This document shows positions 5,283-50,448 of a stretch of DNA of 64,000 bases, in pieces. Every line of letters starts with the position of its first letter. Position 1 is the first letter of the stretch. Below the pieces are notes generated by a model. The model worked only from the letters and a program-made list of their open reading frames with translations. It was not told the origin of the DNA and made no database searches. A program made the position numbers and the translations under genes. The DNA comes from Desulfatibacillum alkenivorans DSM 16219 (GTDB taxonomy: Bacteria > Desulfobacterota > Desulfobacteria > Desulfobacterales > Desulfatibacillaceae). The stretch spans positions 1 through 64,000 of the forward strand of contig NZ_FQZU01000012.1 of the NCBI RefSeq assembly GCF_900142135.1, in the 5' to 3' direction.

Positions 5283-6689
5283 CTATTTTTCGGGGGGGTA
5301 TCCCATCTCCTCCTGAGGCCTGATTTCCTTATGCTCCCTGGATCCCCGGAGCAGCCAGGCGCCCAGAATGACCAAAACCACCAGCCCGATCAGGAAGTAC
5401 CCCACAAAGTAAATCATGGAATCGATGAACACGGCGTTCTTCAGGGCCAATTCCTCCATGCCCGGCTGGTCCGCCGAAAGGCCGGTGCGCAGCCGCGCCA
5501 GAAGCAACGAATAAAGAATGCCGATGGCGCCGTAGCCCAGGTTCAGGGCGAGCCCCTTGAAGCTCAGCACTGTGGCCCGCCTGTCCGACCGGGTGGCCCG
5601 GTTGATGTAAAAACTCAGGAAAAAATCCAGCACGTTCATGTTGGCGAATAAAAGCATGGCCGGAATCACGCCCCACCAGGGGATGAATAGGGACATGCCC
5701 GAAACCCCGGCAAGCACCACAACAGCCATGAAGCCCAGGTTGAACAGCGGGGTTTTGTTTTCCGATAAATATCTGGCCAGACGGGGCACGAAAAAACCCA
5801 TGACGGCAATGCCCGCCCAAATCAAGCCGAACAGAGCCTCCGGGACGTCTATCAACCGGTAATACTGGCTGGCCATGGTGACGATCATACGGGCCACGCT
5901 GTCGAAAAGCAGCCCGGTCATGATGACCGTCAGCACAAAGGGCGTGCGCAAAATCCAGCGTCCCGCCCGAAAAGTAATGGCAAAGGCGTCTTTCACCGAC
6001 GGGGCGGAATCCTCTTCCCTGCCGCCTTCGTCCACCCTTTCTTCCTTCATCATCAGGGTGACGGCCAGAGTCATCACAGCCAGGACCAAGGTCATGTAGA
6101 TAGGCAGGCGCAAGGTGGTTTCCTGGGTGACGGCCATATCCGAACCCAGCCACGAAACGACTTTCTGCACCACGGTGGGGTCGTAGACGATGCCGCCCAA
6201 TATCATGGCGAAGATAAATCCCACGGACTTGAACCGGATGCGCCAGTCCATGATAACGCCCCAGTCGTTGGGATCTCCGTACTTTTTTAGCGTGTCGTAA
6301 GCGATGGCCTCGTCCGCGCCGCTGGCTGATGCCTCGGCCACGCCGCTGCAAATGCGGTTGATGGCGAAAACCAGAAACAACAGGTTGGGGTTGCCCCGGG
6401 GGCAAAAGGCGATCAAAAGCATTTCCAGCACCATGAGCGCGCCGGCCAACACCAGCAGGCGCTTTCTGCCGAATGCGTCGGCCAAAGCGCCGGAAGGCAC
6501 CTCGCACATGACGATGGTGGCCGCCCAGATGGCGTTCAATATGGCGAACTGGCTTAATGTCAGGCCAAAGTCCAAAAACAGGATGGAAAAAACCGGGTAG
6601 TAAAACCGGGAATTGAAAAAGACTCCAAAGGCTACAAATAATTTGACGTTGCGTAAGGCGAATGGAGACGGCTTTTTTTCGCTTTGCAT
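5283..6689 (-). CDS. Major facilitator superfamily transporter
   Basis: 468 residues with about 12 hydrophobic segments. The signature MFS motif A appears as SGALADAFGRKRLL between helices 2 and 3. A charged loop (KEERVDEGGREED) near residue 215 fits the central cytoplasmic linker. Nothing in the sequence fixes the substrate. The gene lies 24 bases downstream of the DUF3124 gene on the same strand, so the two may be cotranscribed. Confidence 0.85.
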   Translation of the reverse strand: MQSEKKPSPFALRNVKLFVAFGVFFNSRFYYPVFSILFLDFGLTLSQFAILNAIWAATIVMCEVPSGALADAFGRKRLLVLAGALMVLEMLLIAFCPRGNPNLLFLVFAINRICSGVAEASASGADEAIAYDTLKKYGDPNDWGVIMDWRIRFKSVGFIFAMILGGIVYDPTVVQKVVSWLGSDMAVTQETTLRLPIYMTLVLAVMTLAVTLMMKEERVDEGGREEDSAPSVKDAFAITFRAGRWILRTPFVLTVIMTGLLFDSVARMIVTMASQYYRLIDVPEALFGLIWAGIAVMGFFVPRLARYLSENKTPLFNLGFMAVVVLAGVSGMSLFIPWWGVIPAMLLFANMNVLDFFLSFYINRATRSDRRATVLSFKGLALNLGYGAIGILYSLLLARLRTGLSADQPGMEELALKNAVFIDSMIYFVGYFLIGLVVLVILGAWLLRGSREHKEIRPQEEMGYPPEK

Positions 6690-6713
6690 TGTTGACCGAA
6701 TCTTCCTTCTTTT

Positions 6714-7208
6714 TTAATCTTTGGTATCTATGACCTTCGCCGGGCATAAAAACGAAATCCCCTGGCCGCCCTTAAGACCCAGCATCAGGGCCTCGATAAC
6801 AGGCTCATTAACCAGTCCCTTGGCCTGCCAGGTAATGATGAAATTGGCGCCCGGGCCTCCCTTTTCATCATATTCCTTAATGTAAATATGCGTGGATGCC
6901 AAGGGGGCGAGGTCTTTTCCTCCCGGGAAATAACTTTCCACCAGCTTGCCTTCGTTATTGTAATAATCGGCGCGAACGATTTTGATGGACTCTTTGGGGT
7001 CTGTGTTGCGGATGCTCACCATGGCGGCGAGCTGAAACACATTAGCCCTGGGGCCGGAATAAACATTGGAATATACGGGCACATATACGGTCTGGCCCTT
7101 GGACAGCACAGGCTGGTCCATGGCCGGGGCCAAGCCGGGTAAAATAAAAACAAGCAGAAGACTGAAAAATACAAGACGTCTACGGGCGATTTTTTTTCCT
7201 CGGTGCAT
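6714..7208 (-). CDS. Exported DUF3124-like protein
   Basis: The start is set at ATG 7208 (MHRGKKIARRRLVFF), giving 164 residues with a signal peptide ending near GLAPA. Reading further upstream only runs into the repeat-coding part of the methyltransferase gene in another frame. The mature protein resembles the DUF3124 family: VYVPVYSNVYSG, then VSIRNTD and YIKEYDEKGG.GANF. That family consists of small periplasmic beta-rich proteins of unknown function. It overlaps the 3' end of the methyltransferase gene by 29 bases, indicating translational coupling. Confidence 0.75.
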   Translation of the reverse strand: MHRGKKIARRRLVFFSLLLVFILPGLAPAMDQPVLSKGQTVYVPVYSNVYSGPRANVFQLAAMVSIRNTDPKESIKIVRADYYNNEGKLVESYFPGGKDLAPLASTHIYIKEYDEKGGPGANFIITWQAKGLVNEPVIEALMLGLKGGQGISFLCPAKVIDTKD

Positions 7209-41190: not shown

Positions 41191-42150
41191 ATGGCCGAAA
41201 CCTGTCTGATTACGGAAATTCAACGCTTTGCGGTAAACGACGGGCCCGGGATTCGCACCAACGTCTTTTTAAAAGGCTGCCCGCTGAAATGCGCCTGGTG
41301 CCACAACCCCGAGACTATCAGCGCCAAACCCCAGGTCTTTTGGAAAAAGCGCCTTTGCGTCCAGTGCGGCGCCTGCATGGACGCCTGCCCCACGGGAGCG
41401 GTTCAGCCGCCCATCGACCCGGTGCTGTCCCGGGCCGAAGGCTCGGATTATTACAAGATCGACCTGGCCCGGTGCGATGGCTGCCTGAACTGCGTGGACG
41501 CCTGCCCTTACGGCGCCCTGGAGATCACGGGCCAGGCCATGACCGTGGAGGAAATTCTGGATGAAGTGGAGTCGGACCGGCCCTTTTACGAAAACTCCGG
41601 CGGAGGCGTGACCCTGTCCGGCGGCGAGCCCACGGCCCATCCGGAATTCGCCGGAAAGATATTGGCCGGGGCGAAAGCCCGGGGCTTGCACACCTGTCTG
41701 GACACCAACGGCCATTGCTCCTGGAGCGTTCTGGAAAGCCTGCTGAAGCACACGGACGTGGTGCTTTTCGACCTCAAGCACACGGACCCGGAGAAGCATA
41801 AGGAATGGACCGGCGTGGACAACGCCCTGATCAAGGAGAATCTGGCGCTCCTGGTAAAAAACCGGGTGGAGACCTGGGTGCGCATTCCCGTGATCCCCGG
41901 CTTTAACGACGCCATTCAGGATCATAAGGCCGCGGCCCTGTTTCTGTCCGAACTTCCCGGCCGCATCGCCCGGGTGGACTTGCTGCCTTACCACAACTGG
42001 TGCCAGGACAAATACGGATGGCTGGGCCGGAGCTGGTCTCTGTGGCAAACCGAGGCCATGGAGCCTTCCTTGCTGGAAATTCCCAGGGAGCTTTACGAAA
42101 TGAGCGGCCTGGAAGCCACCATCGGCGGCTCCGGGTTTGAAGGAGCATAG
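41191..42150 (+). CDS. assD: Glycyl radical enzyme activase (AssD-like), copy 1
   Basis: 319 residues of the radical SAM activase family. The SAM cluster is CxxxCxxC with Cys30, 34 and 37 (GCPLKCAWCHNPE). Two extra [4Fe-4S] ferredoxin motifs follow (CVQCGACMDACP and CDGCLNCVDACP), as in BssD/AssD and HpdA-type enzymes. It installs the glycyl radical on its partner by SAM cleavage. The next gene begins 7 bases after its stop. Confidence 0.88.
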   Translation: MAETCLITEIQRFAVNDGPGIRTNVFLKGCPLKCAWCHNPETISAKPQVFWKKRLCVQCGACMDACPTGAVQPPIDPVLSRAEGSDYYKIDLARCDGCLNCVDACPYGALEITGQAMTVEEILDEVESDRPFYENSGGGVTLSGGEPTAHPEFAGKILAGAKARGLHTCLDTNGHCSWSVLESLLKHTDVVLFDLKHTDPEKHKEWTGVDNALIKENLALLVKNRVETWVRIPVIPGFNDAIQDHKAAALFLSELPGRIARVDLLPYHNWCQDKYGWLGRSWSLWQTEAMEPSLLEIPRELYEMSGLEATIGGSGFEGA

Positions 42151-42157
42151 AACCGGT

Positions 42158-43099
42158 TTGAAGGCGCCAGGAAAAACAATCGGAATAGTCAACGACATCC
42201 AGCGCATGTCCACCAACGACGGTCCTGGATTTCGCACCACCGTATTTTTGAAGGGGTGCCTGCTGGACTGCAAATGGTGCCACAACCCGGAAGGGCGGCG
42301 CCGTTTTCCCGAGGTCATTCCCTTTTACACCAATTGCATCGGGTGCGGAGACTGCCTGGAAGCCTGCGCCGCCGGCGCCCTGTCTCTCAATGACGACGCC
42401 AAGCCAATGATCGACCGGGCCTTGTGCACGGACTGCTTTCAATGCGCCCGGACATGCACCCATTCCGGCCTGGTTCCCTGGGGAGCCATCCAAACCGCCG
42501 CCGAGGTCATGCAAGAGGTGTTTGCCGACGAACCCTTTTTTCGCCATTCCGGCGGAGGCCTCACCGTTTCCGGGGGCGAGCCCATGGCTCAGCCCGGATT
42601 CGTCCACGCCCTTTTTAGCCTGGCCAAAGAGGGCGCCGAAGAAGGCAGGCCCATCCATACGGCCCTGGACACCTGCGGCCACGCCCCATGGGAGGATTAC
42701 GCCCGGGTGCTGCCCCTGGCCGACCTGGTGCTTTTGGACCTGAAGCACATGGACCCCCAACCCCACAAAGCCTATACGGGCGCGACGAACAAGCTGATCC
42801 TGGACAACGCCCAAAAGATGGCTGAGGCCGGCGCCGTCATGCGCATTCGGGTTCCCATCATACCGGGAGTGAACGACAACCAGGAAAACTGGACCGCCAC
42901 GGCCAAATTCGCGGCGAGTCTGGACGACGCGGTCCAGGGCGTAGACCTTCTGCCCTATCACCCCTACGCCGGAAGCAAATACAGGGCCTTTGGCATGGAA
43001 TACGACTTTCCCGCGGGCGAAGGCTACGACGACGCCCGCCTGGAGCCGGTGATCGATCTGTTTTTGGAGCATGTTTACGAAGTAACCATTGGCGGTTAG
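42158..43099 (+). CDS. Glycyl radical enzyme activase, copy 2
   Basis: 313 residues, start placed at TTG 42158 (MKAPGKTIGIVNDI), with GAAGGAG 12 bases upstream; the frame is open from TTG 42137. The SAM motif is Cys34, 38, 41 (GCLLDCKWCHNPE), with two further cluster motifs (CIGCGDCLEACA and CTDCFQCARTCT). It is diverged from copy 1, not a recent duplicate. Either both act on the same enzyme or this one serves another glycyl radical enzyme. Confidence 0.82.
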   Translation: MKAPGKTIGIVNDIQRMSTNDGPGFRTTVFLKGCLLDCKWCHNPEGRRRFPEVIPFYTNCIGCGDCLEACAAGALSLNDDAKPMIDRALCTDCFQCARTCTHSGLVPWGAIQTAAEVMQEVFADEPFFRHSGGGLTVSGGEPMAQPGFVHALFSLAKEGAEEGRPIHTALDTCGHAPWEDYARVLPLADLVLLDLKHMDPQPHKAYTGATNKLILDNAQKMAEAGAVMRIRVPIIPGVNDNQENWTATAKFAASLDDAVQGVDLLPYHPYAGSKYRAFGMEYDFPAGEGYDDARLEPVIDLFLEHVYEVTIGG

Positions 43100-43151
43100 C
43101 CTGTCCCATAAAGGCGGCGCCTTTCATCGTCTTGACCAAGGAGGAAAAAGG

Positions 43152-43511
43152 ATGTCTCGAAGAAGTCAGTGGAAACAGGTGGCGAACGGCATGTTGGGCG
43201 ACGTCAGCAAAGCCCGGACCGTGGAGGAACGGGAGAACGTCCCGGAAAAGGCCTGCGGTTTTTGCAGGAATTTCTCCGAAAACGCCTACGCATCGGACGG
43301 CCGCGGCTACTGTAAAAAGCTCAAGGTCGGCTCGGACATCAAAGCGGTTCCGCCGGTCTACGTCATGGAGGGCGAGGCCAGCTACACCGTCCTGTTCAAC
43401 TCCGACGGCGGCAAGTGCGAACACTACACCCGCCAGGCCCTCATCGACACCAGCGGAAGCGAGGTGAACGACCCCAGTTACCGCAGGGCTCATCGCCAGT
43501 TGAAAAAGTAG
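43152..43511 (+). CDS. Small cysteine-rich subunit, candidate beta subunit (AssB-like)
   Basis: 119 residues from ATG 43152 with a GAGGAAAAAGG site. Cysteines are arranged CGFCRNF...GYCKKL...KCEHY, the C-x2-C-x(n)-C-x(n)-C pattern of the [4Fe-4S] small subunits of benzylsuccinate and alkylsuccinate synthases (BssB/BssC). It lies between the activases and assA. Beta-subunit assignment is by pattern and place. A GC hairpin at 43564-43598 follows. Confidence 0.65.
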   Translation: MSRRSQWKQVANGMLGDVSKARTVEERENVPEKACGFCRNFSENAYASDGRGYCKKLKVGSDIKAVPPVYVMEGEASYTVLFNSDGGKCEHYTRQALIDTSGSEVNDPSYRRAHRQLKK

Positions 43512-43677: not shown

Positions 43678-43891
43678 ATTTGCTGTAAAATTGGGCTATT
43701 GATATCCTTCTATTTTAGAAATTAGTGTTAAATTTTTGATAAAAATTTGTCTAAATTGCGCCTAATAATATCTTTTATCAATTATGGATGGTAATTTTTA
43801 CGTCATCTGTGCTAATAGGATGGTATCATCATCAGGGGAACCGTTTTTCCGGAAGTAATGCCAGCAAACGCCAAGAGTGAAAGGAAAGACC

Positions 43892-46393
43892 ATGACTGCA
43901 GAACCCGCAAAGTTGGACGTGAGTCTCCAAGAACATGAAGAGAAACAGGAATGGTGGTGGATCGCGGAAAAAAAGCGCTCCAAAAGGCTGGACTATTTGA
44001 GGAAGGCCGTGTGGAAAAAAGGGGCTTTGGGCGGCAACTACGCCCCTGGAATCAAAGTGGACCTGGAAGGTCCCAAGCTGTTTACGGACATGTGGAAGTG
44101 GTGGAAATTCGACCCCATCATCATGCGCAGGGCCAAAGCACTGGCCCATGTTTTTGACAATATTCCCATTTTTATTACGGATCATTCCCAACTCGTGGGG
44201 TACTGGGGCAGCGCTCCCCATACCATCAGCTGGCGCGTGGACGGCGCGTCCATCGTCAACGAGGAACTGTACAACGAACCCGGCATCATGCCCGAGCCTG
44301 AAGAGGAATCCCTCCGCAAAGTGGCCGAGATCAACGATTACTGGGCCGGTCAGACCGCCGTGGACAAGGTGGCCCGCATTCTGGACCCGGAAGACGCGGT
44401 GAAGTTCCTCTCCGGCGCCATCGGCTGGGGCGCCCCGACCTCCGCATACGGCTATTCGGGCAAGAACTACGAATATTACCTTAAGGGCGAGCGCGGCTTT
44501 GAAGACATCATCGCCGACATTGAAGATCACATCGCCGAAGCCGAAGAAAAAACCATCGGCGTCCCCGGCCCGGACATCCTGCACATTTACGATCGCATCC
44601 AGAACTGGGAAGCCATGATCCTCGTGCTGGAAGCGGCCATCCGGTTCGCCAAACGCTACGCCCGTCTTGCCAGGACCATGGCCGAGCACCTGGAAACCGA
44701 CGAAAAGCGCAAGGAAGAACTCCTGCGCATCGCCGAAACCTGCGAGCGGGTTCCGGCCAAGGCCCCGCGGAACTTGCAGGAATCCTTCCAAATGGATTTG
44801 CTGATCCAGACCATGTCGCGCTTTGAAGCCAGCGAGGGCGCCTGGCCTGCAAGACCCGACTACTACCACGGGCCCTTTTACGAAAAAGACGTTCTCCAGG
44901 ACAAAAGCCTGACCGAAGAGGAAGCCACGGACCTTATCGGCGAATTCATGATCCGCGCATACGAAGTGGGCGGCTTCGGCCCCCGTTGGGCTCGTGAAGG
45001 CATGCAGGGCATCACCGGCACCTGGGTCTGGACCATCGGCGGCGTCAAGCCCGACGGCTCGGACGCATGCAACGCCCTGACCACCGCCTTCCTGCGCACC
45101 GCGCGCCTGATCCGGGTGTCCAATCCCACCTTCGCCTTCAGGTGGCATCCCAAAGTCTCCGACGAGGTCATGCGGGAATGCTTTGAGTGCATCCGCCACG
45201 GCCTGGGCTATCCGTCCTTCCGCAACGACCCCATTTTGGTGGCCAACTGCATGAACTGGCACGGCCACCCGGTGGAGGAAGCCCGCACCTGGGTGCATCA
45301 GGCCTGCATGAGCCCGTGCCCCACCACCAAAAACGGCGTCCAGCCCTTCCGCATGGCGTCCGCCACGGCCAATTGCGCCAAGATGGTGGAATACGCCCTG
45401 CACAACGGCTACGACCACGTGGTGGGCATGCAAATGGGCCCCCAGACCGGGGACGCCCGCACCTTTACGGATTTCGAGCAGCTCTTCGACGCCTGGACCC
45501 AGCAGATGCAGTGGCTGTTGAGCCTCCTGGTCCGCACTGTCAACCTGGGCCGGTACAAGGACCCCGAATTCTACGGCAGGCCCTTCCTCTCCGGCATCAC
45601 CGAGCGCGCCGTGGAAAGGGGCATCGACGCAGTCAGCCCCGAAGGCGAACGCGGCAACTGCTGGATCACCGCTTTCACCTGGGTGGAAAACGCCGACTCC
45701 CTGGCCGCCGTCAAAAAGCTGGTGTTCGACGATAAAAAATACACCATGGATCAGTTGATCACAGCCCTGGAAACCAATTGGGACGGCTACGAGCAAATGC
45801 GCCTGGACTTCGTCAATAAAGCGCCCAAATGGGGCAACGACGACGACTACGTGGACGACATCATGCTCCGGTGCCTGCGCACCATGGCCAAGCACAGCAA
45901 GGTCATGCGCTGCACCTCCAACAACACCTGGCCGGCCGCTCCCCAGAACGTCTCCGGCAACATCCACTACTCCTCCGTAGTGGGCGCCCTGCCCAACGGC
46001 AGAAGACTGGGCGACGCCCTGTACGACGGCGGCATCTCCCCCGGTCCGGGCCTGGATAAAAAAGGCCCCACAGCCGTGTTGAAGTCCTGCGGCAAGATCG
46101 ACCACGTGGCGGACGGCAGGGCCTTTTTGCTGAACCAGCGCCTTTCCCCCACCCAGATGGCCGGCGAGAAAGGGTATCAGCTCTGGCGGGCCTATATGCG
46201 CACCTGGGCCGACCTGGGCCTGGACCACATCCAGTTTAACATGGTCTCGGACAAAACCCTCCGGGCCGCCCAGAAAGACCCGGAAAAATACCAGGAGGTG
46301 ATCGTGCGGGTGGCGGGCTACAGCGCCCATTTTGTGGATATCTCCCGCAAAACCCAGGACAACATCATCCAGAGGACGATCCAGGGCATTTAA
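43892..46393 (+). CDS. assA: Alkylsuccinate synthase-type glycyl radical enzyme, catalytic subunit
   Basis: 833 residues from ATG 43892 (MTAEPAKLD), with AAGGAAAGACC upstream; the frame is open from GTG 43877. The C-terminal glycyl radical motif VRVAGYSAHF puts the radical glycine at Gly809. The catalytic-cysteine region is HQACMSPCPTTKNG with Cys472 and Cys476; the thiyl-forming cysteine is most likely Cys472. Sequence and length fit the fumarate-adding family (AssA/MasD, BssA). AssA fits best from memory of the N-terminal and central blocks, but a close aromatic variant cannot be ruled out. It adds an alkane carbon to fumarate, starting anaerobic hydrocarbon degradation. Activase genes and small subunits lie on both sides. 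Confidence 0.88.
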   Translation: MTAEPAKLDVSLQEHEEKQEWWWIAEKKRSKRLDYLRKAVWKKGALGGNYAPGIKVDLEGPKLFTDMWKWWKFDPIIMRRAKALAHVFDNIPIFITDHSQLVGYWGSAPHTISWRVDGASIVNEELYNEPGIMPEPEEESLRKVAEINDYWAGQTAVDKVARILDPEDAVKFLSGAIGWGAPTSAYGYSGKNYEYYLKGERGFEDIIADIEDHIAEAEEKTIGVPGPDILHIYDRIQNWEAMILVLEAAIRFAKRYARLARTMAEHLETDEKRKEELLRIAETCERVPAKAPRNLQESFQMDLLIQTMSRFEASEGAWPARPDYYHGPFYEKDVLQDKSLTEEEATDLIGEFMIRAYEVGGFGPRWAREGMQGITGTWVWTIGGVKPDGSDACNALTTAFLRTARLIRVSNPTFAFRWHPKVSDEVMRECFECIRHGLGYPSFRNDPILVANCMNWHGHPVEEARTWVHQACMSPCPTTKNGVQPFRMASATANCAKMVEYALHNGYDHVVGMQMGPQTGDARTFTDFEQLFDAWTQQMQWLLSLLVRTVNLGRYKDPEFYGRPFLSGITERAVERGIDAVSPEGERGNCWITAFTWVENADSLAAVKKLVFDDKKYTMDQLITALETNWDGYEQMRLDFVNKAPKWGNDDDYVDDIMLRCLRTMAKHSKVMRCTSNNTWPAAPQNVSGNIHYSSVVGALPNGRRLGDALYDGGISPGPGLDKKGPTAVLKSCGKIDHVADGRAFLLNQRLSPTQMAGEKGYQLWRAYMRTWADLGLDHIQFNMVSDKTLRAAQKDPEKYQEVIVRVAGYSAHFVDISRKTQDNIIQRTIQGI

Positions 46394-46513: not shown

Positions 46514-46678
46514 ATGAGCACATGCAGCGATTGCAAAAGTTTTTTCCCGCGTGAAGATGAACCCGGCAAGGGCGATTGCGTCCGGCGCGTGGTGGACCCC
46601 AGGCAGGCCTACTACACCACCAGGCCCAAGAACCCCGAGGAAGACGCCTCCGGTTGCGGCGAGTTCCGGAAAAGATAG
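46514..46678 (+). CDS. assC: Small gamma-type subunit of alkylsuccinate synthase (AssC-like)
   Basis: 54 residues starting MSTCSDCKSFFP, with GDCV and SGCGEF later: four to five cysteines in the order of BssC-type [4Fe-4S] subunits. It follows assA by 120 bases, with GAAAGGAGA before the ATG. Stop TAG at 46676-46678. Known relatives bind the large subunit and modulate its activation. Confidence 0.8.
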   Translation: MSTCSDCKSFFPREDEPGKGDCVRRVVDPRQAYYTTRPKNPEEDASGCGEFRKR

Positions 46679-46693
46679 AAAGGAAAACGCAAT

Positions 46694-46915
46694 ATGAAAT
46701 GCCCGGAATGCTCTTATGAAGCTCCCGTTCCTGAATTCAGGTATTTATATAATGTGCGCATTGATGCGCCCCTGACCCTGCGCCAGTGCCCCCAGTGCCA
46801 GGCGTGGCTGTCCGTGGACGAACTGGCCGGAGAATCCACCGGAAAGGTGGAAGCCGGCGACGCCCCCTGGGGCAAGTCCGCAGGCATCGAAAGAGACCTG
46901 GAAGAAGCCGTATAA
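46694..46915 (+). CDS. 73-residue Cys2-Cys2 mini-protein, paralogue 2
   Basis: MKCPECSYEAPV starts it, then LRQCPQCQAWLS: two CxxC pairs spaced as in the 81-residue protein at 40945. The C-terminus is acidic (RDLEEAV). It starts 15 bases after the assC stop with GAAAGGAAAACGC upstream. Likely a small metal-binding partner of the synthase; function unknown. Confidence 0.7.
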   Translation: MKCPECSYEAPVPEFRYLYNVRIDAPLTLRQCPQCQAWLSVDELAGESTGKVEAGDAPWGKSAGIERDLEEAV

Positions 46916-47894: not shown

Positions 47895-48743
47895 ATGGCC
47901 GAAACGGAACACGGATTGGAAATCCCCCAGCGGGAGGAGCATTTTTTCCTGCCCCAAGACATCATCGACAACCTGGGAAGGATCGAAGCCCTGTCCCAAC
48001 GGCATCCGGTCAACATTTTGGTCGCCGGCAAGCAAGGGTGCGGCAAATCCACCATGGTGCGCCAGTTCGCCGCCAACAACAACCGCGCGTTGGCAACCTT
48101 CCAGATAGGCATTCTCTCCGAGCCGGGCCAGCTGTTCGGCGAGCACCGCTTGAAAGACGGCGAAACCTATTACCAGCAATTTTTGTTTCCCCAGGCCATT
48201 CAGACGCCGGGATGCGTCATCCATCTGGAGGAAATCAACCGGCCCGAGCATCCCAAAGCCTTGAACATGCTTTTTTCCGTGCTGTCCCAGGACCGCCAGG
48301 TCTGGACCGACGAACTGGGGCTGATCAAAGTCGCTCCCGGCGTGGTGTTTTTCGCCACATTGAACGAAGGCGAGGAGTTTGTGGGAACCGAAATGCTGGA
48401 TGCGGCCTTGCGGGACCGCTTTTACGTCACCCTCATGGACTATTTGACTCCCGAGGTGGAAACCGATGTTTTGCACCTTAAGACCGGCATTGACCAGGGC
48501 GACGCCCAGACCATCGTCAACATAGCCGGCCAGTTGCGGAAAAACACCCAGGAGCCGGTCACCGTGTCCACACGCCACACCTTGATGATCGCCGAAATGG
48601 TCGCCGTGGGCGCCACGGTGCGCGAGGCTTTCGCCAACAGCCTGCAGGTGAGCCGGGACATCCTGGAATCCGTGCTCCTTTCCCTGCATTTGGAGATGAA
48701 CATGACGGAAAGGTCCCATGGAAGCCGATACGAAAAATATTGA
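47895..48743 (+). CDS. MoxR-type AAA+ ATPase
   Basis: 282 residues. Walker A GKQGCGKST at residues 45-53; Walker B-like VIHLEEINRP at 108-117 with Glu-Glu in place of Asp-Glu. Sensor-type TLNEGEEFVGT lies near 155. MoxR/NorQ-type ATPases work with VWA proteins as assembly chaperones; BssE in benzylsuccinate loci is a comparable case. It overlaps the next gene by 26 bases. Confidence 0.87.
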   Translation: MAETEHGLEIPQREEHFFLPQDIIDNLGRIEALSQRHPVNILVAGKQGCGKSTMVRQFAANNNRALATFQIGILSEPGQLFGEHRLKDGETYYQQFLFPQAIQTPGCVIHLEEINRPEHPKALNMLFSVLSQDRQVWTDELGLIKVAPGVVFFATLNEGEEFVGTEMLDAALRDRFYVTLMDYLTPEVETDVLHLKTGIDQGDAQTIVNIAGQLRKNTQEPVTVSTRHTLMIAEMVAVGATVREAFANSLQVSRDILESVLLSLHLEMNMTERSHGSRYEKY

Positions 48744-50448
48744 TTTCACGCCGGCTTCGGCCTCGGACCCGGAGGAGGAAGATGGCCTTTCTTCCTTTTG
48801 GCGAAAAAACGTTTCCGGCCTGGAATCCGTGGAACTGGCCAACATCCTGCGGGCGCTCCGCAAGGTGGCGGGGCATATGGGGCCAAACGTGGGCCGGATC
48901 GAATACACGGGCATGGCCCACGGATCCGCCGCGTCCATCATCATCGACCCCGAGGTGGTCATGGGCGAATATCCGGCGCCGCCCCATAAGGTGGATTACC
49001 TCACGGGCCTGGTGGTGCATGAAGCCCTGCACAAAATCGAGTGGTCGGAAAAAGTGTGGAAAACGCTCGCCCCGGATTTCTCCGCCATGCCCGGCTTTTC
49101 CAGGATCGCCTTTCAAAAAATAATCCATACCGGCGAGGACGTTTACGTGGACCGCCTGGCCGACCGCTCCATCCTGGGCCGGTACGCAGCCCGCACCCGC
49201 AGCCGGGCCATGGACGAGGCGCAAGCCCGGCTGAGCGCCGAAAAGCCCACTTTGGAGCATTTGATCCATCTGTGGTGGGCCTCGTCCTGGTCCCCCCAAA
49301 TATTCGAGCGCGCTGCAGATTCTTACCTGCCCGCCCTGAAAATTCTTCAAAATTTAACCGCCTCCCTGGAATCCCTGCCTGACCGGACTGCAAGCATCAT
49401 CAAACGCTGCCAGGGCAGGGCGGACCTGTACAAAGCCGCCTGGAAAAACCTGGAACCGGAGGTGAAAGGCCTTTCCATCCAGGACAAGCGCTTGATCTGG
49501 CTGCCCGATTCGGCGGTTTCCGTCCATCAGGACGAGGACTCAGGCGCCCCGGCGCCCTCGCCGCGCAAAGGGCTGAACAACGCCCTCATGCGCGATATTG
49601 AAACCAACCTGGCCCAAAGCTCCGCAGACATCACGCCCATCATCCGATCCATCGTGGGGCCGGACAACCCGGACGTGGCGCCCATCTCCCGCTGGGACTT
49701 CAACATGGCCGCCCATCCGGTGATCGACCGGAAAACCGTGGGCAGGCTTAAAGCCGTCTTCGCCAATTACGCCGACCGGAAAAAAATCATGAGCCGGGGC
49801 CTGACCGGAGGCCGCGTGGACGGCCGCAAGCTGTACCGCGCGCCCATCAACGGCCGGTGCTTCAGGCAGACGGATTCCATCCCCTCCATGGACTGGAACG
49901 TCACCCTTTTGCTGGACGCCACGGGCAGCATGCGGGGCGGCAAATGGCGCATGGTGGAGAACACCGTAGGCGCCATGCACAAGGCCCTGGCCGGCTTTCA
50001 AAACCGCCTGGGCGCCTGGGCCTATTTTGAAATGGACGGCATCTGCATGATGTCCCGGCTGCTTTCCGGCCGCAACCTGTTGTCCGTGCCCCCCAGCGGC
50101 CAGACCGCCTCGGGCCAGGCCATCATTGCGGCGGCTTATTTCATGCCCAAGGACAAGCGCCGCAAGCTCTTGATCCACGTTACGGACGGGCAATCCAATT
50201 TTGGGGTGGATGTATCGTGCGGGATAGATTATTGTAGGCAGCAAAACATCAACCTGGTTACAATCGGATGCGGGGTTAAGGATCGGGCCAAGATGGAGGA
50301 GCAGTACGGAAGGACCATTCAGTTTGTGAGTCATTTCGGACAGCTTCCCATGGCCATGGAAAAGCTGTTAAAATGGTCATTTTTATACGGCGACGGAAAA
50401 AAACTCACTGCGGAGGCCCGCTTGCGCAGGCTTTTCGCAACGGACTAA
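48718..50448 (+). CDS. VWA-domain protein with HEXXH metallopeptidase-like site (DUF2201 type)
   Basis: 576 residues from ATG 48718, inside the end of the MoxR gene. HEALH near residues 101-105 (VVHEALHKIEW) matches the HEXXH zinc site of DUF2201_N-type putative metallopeptidases. The C-terminal von Willebrand A domain has the metal site DATGSMRGG near residue 399 and ends near ATD. With MoxR it forms a pair resembling NorQ/NorD or CbbX/CbbO systems that assemble or remodel metalloenzymes. In this locus the client is probably AssA; this is inferred from position. Confidence 0.85.
   Translation: MEADTKNIDFTPASASDPEEEDGLSSFWRKNVSGLESVELANILRALRKVAGHMGPNVGRIEYTGMAHGSAASIIIDPEVVMGEYPAPPHKVDYLTGLVVHEALHKIEWSEKVWKTLAPDFSAMPGFSRIAFQKIIHTGEDVYVDRLADRSILGRYAARTRSRAMDEAQARLSAEKPTLEHLIHLWWASSWSPQIFERAADSYLPALKILQNLTASLESLPDRTASIIKRCQGRADLYKAAWKNLEPEVKGLSIQDKRLIWLPDSAVSVHQDEDSGAPAPSPRKGLNNALMRDIETNLAQSSADITPIIRSIVGPDNPDVAPISRWDFNMAAHPVIDRKTVGRLKAVFANYADRKKIMSRGLTGGRVDGRKLYRAPINGRCFRQTDSIPSMDWNVTLLLDATGSMRGGKWRMVENTVGAMHKALAGFQNRLGAWAYFEMDGICMMSRLLSGRNLLSVPPSGQTASGQAIIAAAYFMPKDKRRKLLIHVTDGQSNFGVDVSCGIDYCRQQNINLVTIGCGVKDRAKMEEQYGRTIQFVSHFGQLPMAMEKLLKWSFLYGDGKKLTAEARLRRLFATD

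Follow-up and report, generated by a model that had tools for sequence, protein, structure and literature searches.

AssE and AssF of Desulfatibacillum alkenivorans, a MoxR-type ATPase and VWA protein probably dedicated to a fumarate-adding glycyl radical enzyme

The window analyzed here is a stretch of 64,000 nucleotides at the start of contig NZ_FQZU01000012.1 of Desulfatibacillum alkenivorans DSM 16219. It contains an alkylsuccinate synthase (ASS) locus in which genes for a MoxR-type AAA+ ATPase (AssE) and a von Willebrand factor A (VWA) protein (AssF) lie downstream of two activases, the catalytic subunit AssA and several small cysteine-rich proteins. In window coordinates, the genes and their overlap are as follows:

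41191-42150, + strand, AssD, radical SAM glycyl-radical activase (TIGR02494 above cut-off)
42137-43099, + strand, second, tandem activase (TIGR02494 above cut-off)
43089-43511, + strand, cysteine-rich AssC-like small protein, start probably internal (MSRRSQ), from the reading frame and related loci
43877-46393, + strand, AssA, alkylsuccinate synthase catalytic subunit and presumed client (PFL-like and Gly_radical domains)
46514-46678, + strand, cysteine-rich protein of 54 aa, similar to the gamma subunit BssC; small proteins like it occur in ASS and BSS loci
46694-46915, + strand, 73-aa CxxC small protein with counterparts in loci L088 and L092
47541-47879, + strand, 112-aa zinc-ribbon-like small protein directly 5' of assE, its position conserved in ASS loci
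47895-48743, + strand, AssE, MoxR-type AAA+ ATPase, BssE/NorQ/CbbQ-like, 282 aa (AAA_5 and CbbQ_C matches)
48718-48743, + strand, overlap of assE and assF, 26 bases (from the coordinates of both genes)
48718-50448, + strand, AssF, BssF-like partner of 576 aa, helical in its N-terminal domain and ending in a VWA domain (VWA match)

AssA shares 76% identity with AssA of Desulfosarcina alkanivorans and 36% with the benzylsuccinate synthase (BSS) subunit BssA of Aromatoleum tolulyticum. The tandem activases (41191-43099) overlap by 14 bases and precede AssA, and two activases are also present in several other ASS loci. Another contig of the same genome carries a second copy of the arrangement, with 82% identity between the AssA proteins and 73% between the VWA proteins. 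The original prediction placed assE and assF correctly, including their overlap of exactly 26 bases, which is the commonest E/F spacing in the ASS clade; many ASS loci overlap, whereas BSS-type pairs are separated by gaps, mostly without overlap.

AssE matches both AAA_5 (E=8e-18) and CbbQ_C (E=8e-7) above the Pfam gathering scores, and its Walker motifs are found at the following positions:

48027-48053, + strand, Walker A, GKQGCGKST (sequence motif)
48216-48248, + strand, Walker-B-like VIHLEEINRPE, with E112-E113 where D-E is expected

Across 79 homologues, the Walker A residues G45, G48, G50, K51, and S52 are invariant, as are both E112 and E113. A sensor-1 segment (ATLNEG) and an arginine finger segment (LRDRF) are also present, and together with Walker A and CbbQ_C these are the features that mark AAA+ proteins of the MoxR/VWA-chaperone type. 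Among solved structures, AssE matches midasin, NorQ (E=1.6e-15), CbbQ, and, weakly, CobS, and it is 60-90% identical to the MoxR partners in most related loci.

In AssF, VWA is the sole Pfam match, above cut-off at E=6e-7. The domain carries a complete MIDAS of the DxSxS-T-D form (D400, S404, T489, D490), and the DATGS metal site that had been predicted for the C-terminal part is indeed there:

49798-49845, + strand, conserved GLTGGRVDGRKLYRAP, directly ahead of the VWA domain, candidate pore 'finger'
49915-49929, + strand, MIDAS DxTxS, here DATGS (aa 400-404), D400 and S404 invariant
50179-50193, + strand, MIDAS Thr/Asp segment VTDGQ (aa 488-492), T489 and D490 invariant

The AlphaFold model of AssF (mean pLDDT 82.7) shows an N-terminal helical domain followed by the C-terminal VWA domain, for which the best structural match is the VWA domain of NorQ-bound NorD (Z 19.1). 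The best profile match of AssF to a solved structure is CobT (E=6e-6), a likeness limited to about 150 residues that span the segment preceding the MIDAS. Part of this segment, RGLxxGKxDxRRLYRAP at residues 360-376, is near-invariant in our alignment (A3) and aligns with CobT, and the finger-candidate segment has a pLDDT below 50, being disordered in the model of free AssF. Such disorder, along with the CobT alignment, would be expected if a finger becomes ordered only within the AAA+ pore, and residues 358-388 are therefore a candidate finger, conserved and predicted to be disordered in isolation. AssE/AssF thus resemble CobS/CobT of the aerobic cobaltochelatase through the CobT profile match and the weak CobS match. 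In CobS/CobT, the metal is inserted into a tetrapyrrole.

The closest known counterparts are BssE and BssF of Azoarcus, Aromatoleum, and Magnetospirillum 15-1, in which an AAA+ gene is likewise followed by the gene of a roughly 580-aa VWA protein, both located 3' of the genes for a fumarate-adding enzyme, its activase and its small subunits. The MoxR gene lies directly upstream of the VWA gene within the operon of the fumarate-adding enzyme at our locus as well, and homology to the A. tolulyticum proteins (L133) extends over the full length, with 62% identity for AssE and 31% for AssF (61-62% and 31% when the Aromatoleum copies are taken together); the F proteins fall in one tree. The genes bssE and bssF, encoding AAA+ and vWA proteins, are common to all sequenced toluene degraders (PMC7285207, PMC5874301). 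In Azoarcus, bssE is essential for toluene degradation, and disruption of bssF in strain CIB abolished growth on toluene and m-xylene, possibly through polar effects (PMC5874301). The proposal of the glycyl radical enzyme as the client is therefore no new idea, as a MoxR/VWA pair serving such an enzyme is already known from the orthologous toluene degradation systems, and it is well supported here by the co-occurrence described below. Our literature search found no experiment on AssE/AssF, and no paper linking alkylsuccinate synthase with MoxR or a glycyl radical with MoxR and VWA.

The original prediction had also pointed to NorQ/NorD and CbbX/CbbO as analogues. The former comparison holds, while the rubisco pair is CbbQ/CbbO, CbbX being a different AAA+ activase. 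NorQ/NorD, which act in iron insertion into nitric oxide reductase, likewise combine a MoxR ATPase with a VWA partner, although they serve a membrane enzyme with haem and non-haem iron. In NorQD, a finger of the VWA protein enters the pore of the hexamer, the MIDAS is dispensable for NorQ binding yet required for the client, and twisting of the linker was proposed to open the client so that metal can be inserted (PMC9976466, PMC13036017). CbbQ/CbbO, the rubisco activase of chemoautotrophs, remodel a soluble enzyme by means of a MoxR ATPase and a VWA/MIDAS protein (PMC4660213) and resemble AssE/AssF in this respect, in a comparison that covered CbbQ, but their client is inhibited rubisco.

We surveyed 59 relatives for co-occurrence of the pair with fumarate-adding enzymes, which were called at an AssA score above 500 bits (the score thresholds are our own). 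The VWA gene was found in 14/14 genomes with a fumarate-adding enzyme and in 2/45 without (Fisher p=9e-12, a value that ignores shared ancestry). In a sample of 247 genomes from the phylum, the corresponding counts for the F gene were 8/9 and 2/238 (p=1e-12, likewise ignoring shared ancestry). In addition, a glycyl radical enzyme or activase was present in 28 of the 31 loci with full 10-kb flanks. Many of the surveyed genomes encode glycyl radical enzymes that score below the fumarate-adding range and have no F gene, indicating that the distribution of the pair tracks the fumarate-adding branch.

Several exceptions deserve comment. One of the 2/45, G009, carries a distant pair with 24-32% identity and the motif HETGH. 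In G171, which appears to be Smithella sp. M82, the contig starts just upstream of the small-subunit gene, and in the published genome of this strain the ass genes lie on other contigs (PMC5606693), so that this exception is attributable to an assembly break. A further exception, G122, is a contig of 3.4 kb. By contrast, G173 is a real exception: this genome is 98% complete and encodes a BSS-clade enzyme (53-56% identity to BssA proteins) with no F gene. The enzyme is encoded there in two near-identical copies (L134: 7817-10243 and L135: 7015-9441), and next to the first lie an activase gene and molybdenum-hydroxylase-like genes. A single small cysteine-rich subunit accompanies the enzyme, and the E/F pair is absent. 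This small subunit is beta-like, a gamma-like one was not found in G173, and its family-mates gave no further cases. This single genome gives a lead that the pair may track not the synthase but its BssC-like (gamma) subunit.

PPOX-like and FKBP-like genes are located 3' of assF in several ASS loci, and one might suppose that the pair serves one of these nearby-encoded proteins, its linkage to AssA being indirect; related pairs that have no glycyl radical enzyme close by, one of them beside SPASM radical SAM genes (L115), would fit this idea. However, the BSS-type loci, in which the pair persists, yielded no PPOX/FKBP genes, genome-wide co-occurrence tracks the fumarate-adding enzyme, and bssE is essential for toluene degradation in Azoarcus as noted above. 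We regard a PPOX-like or FKBP-like client as very unlikely.

The N-terminal part of AssF contains the HEALH motif that led the original prediction to suggest a metallopeptidase-type step in maturation of the synthase:

49018-49032, + strand, HEALH (aa 101-105), on helix 89-107 (motif and AlphaFold model)
49132-49152, + strand, GEDVYVD (aa 139-145), E140 invariant and on helix 126-148 of the AlphaFold model, D141 tending to go with HEXXH

HEALH is not accidental, given a chance expectation of 0.014 HEXXH motifs per protein of AssF composition and its position in a recognizable column of the family. This column is nevertheless not conserved across the F family, as HEXXH is present in 45 of 92 full-length homologues and missing from 47, and the tree requires ten or more changes. 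Zincin metallopeptidases, considered as a possible family for AssF, are defined by a conserved HEXXH, and these counts do not support the assignment. HEXXH is missing from every partner of the BSS branch, such as BssF of Aromatoleum with QEAYK, and is retained in 37/47 proteins of the ASS clade, where about six losses occurred. Within this clade, broken versions occur in the nearest relatives from outside the genus (L055, HEALG; L005, HEAML; L056, HEALL) and likewise in L066/L074, L065, and L079/L090. L097 has HQAMH instead, and in D. alkanivorans (L088) the copy next to AssA reads HEALR. Furthermore, genomes G005 (HEAML), G304 (HEAIL), and G305 (HEALL) each have a single F gene, without HEXXH, beside at least one intact AssA gene. 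HEXXH is thus dispensable, and required proteolysis by it is excluded as a general mechanism by these single-copy genomes, the BSS branch, and the repeated losses.

It could still be argued that AssF is an active metallopeptidase in which HEALH and E140/D141 bind zinc and cleave AssA, a small subunit, or another factor in maturation. Within the ASS branch, H101 and E140 are invariant, E102 is conserved at 98% and H105 at 81%. D141 tends to vanish with HEXXH, being kept in 33/37 HEXXH-bearing and 3/10 HEXXH-less proteins of the clade, but in independent pairs the co-loss has a median p of 0.125. When modelled alone, the N-terminal domain (pLDDT 86) is predicted to place HEALH and E140 on two neighbouring helices, and its top VIA match is a Zn-dependent peptidase (3c37), although at Z 4.2 this weak match falls in the chance range. 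The HETGH of the distant G009 homologue would also agree with a peptidase. On the other side, in addition to the losses listed above, AssF has no match to a metallopeptidase domain or peptidase family in Pfam or NCBIfam, and the N-terminal domain alone gave no Foldseek match in the PDB at E<=0.001. The N-terminal domains of NorD and CbbO were absent among its structural matches as well, which does not exclude likeness to them. Overall, we consider an active metallopeptidase highly improbable.

As judged from the distribution of the motif, the best reading is that HEALH in AssF is a remnant, an optional or vestigial metal site and no required protease centre; it may bind metal where retained, or it may be decaying. 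Its retention in most of the ASS clade suggests that it probably does something there, and a tentative refinement of the chaperone interpretation, not exclusive of it, is that HEALH and E140/D141 form a non-catalytic structural or regulatory metal site that most ASS systems retain, for instance to sense iron or redox state. The conservation pattern that could speak for a metallopeptidase would speak for such a site too, and its repeated disappearance from systems that persist is what a dispensable modulator would show, but the losses suit an ancestral site in decay as well. A more specific version, in which most ASS systems have a working N-terminal metal centre in AssF (H101, H105, E140 and/or D141) as a sensor of iron or redox state or for cleavage of a client, seems rather unlikely to us; if true, it would add a control on AAA+ remodelling that has been lost from benzylsuccinate synthase systems.

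Taken with the domain likeness, the survey makes it quite probable that AssE/AssF are the alkylsuccinate synthase version of BssE/BssF, a MoxR AAA+ and VWA pair dedicated to fumarate-adding enzymes, with a mechanism like that of NorQD and CbbQO and with HEALH optional. Counting against this interpretation are the G173 enzyme without a pair, the pairs of L121, L126, and L127 without a nearby glycyl radical enzyme, the potential polarity of the bssF mutant, and the retention of HEXXH in those 37 ASS-clade proteins. By analogy with NorQ/NorD and CbbQ/CbbO, AssE would assemble as a hexamer on which the VWA domain of AssF would be seated, its finger inserted into the pore. The MIDAS metal of AssF might dock on an acidic residue of the client, specificity being supplied by the N-terminal helical domain, and ATP hydrolysis would then pull AssA into a state in which the small Fe-S subunits could be placed or displaced. 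The remodelled AssA would be open to glycyl radical formation by AssD. Alternatively, AssE/AssF may repair the synthase after damage.

The puzzle is why fumarate-adding enzymes have a dedicated ATP-driven chaperone that other glycyl radical enzymes do not need, one that follows them across phyla in our survey. As the natural HEXXH-less variants indicate that no protease step is needed, these variants and the survey narrow the search to the MIDAS, the N-terminal docking surfaces, and the small Fe-S subunits. They also suggest co-expression of AssE/AssF when active alkylsuccinate synthase is to be made outside its host.

Other loci showed further arrangements of these genes. In L121, L126, and L127 (9058-11770), of a Firmicutes lineage, a pair with intact HEXXH lies in a conserved neighbourhood with no glycyl radical enzyme within 10 kb. 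At L115 (6862-14797), three SPASM radical SAM genes, whose heme b synthase/NirJ-like scores are below cut-off, are interspersed with one MoxR gene and two VWA genes that resemble assF and retain HEXXH, and no glycyl radical enzyme was found within the stretch examined; it is possible that a different client of the same chaperone family is served here. In the ASS loci L066, L069, L074, and L060, a second, more divergent MoxR-VWA pair is located a few kb 3' of the first, its VWA protein about 30% identical and without HEXXH. Finally, in Aromatoleum anaerobium LuFRes1 (L129: 3425-7640), a BssA-like gene next to an intact E/F pair appears to be interrupted by a transposase-like reading frame on the opposite strand (5594-6928).
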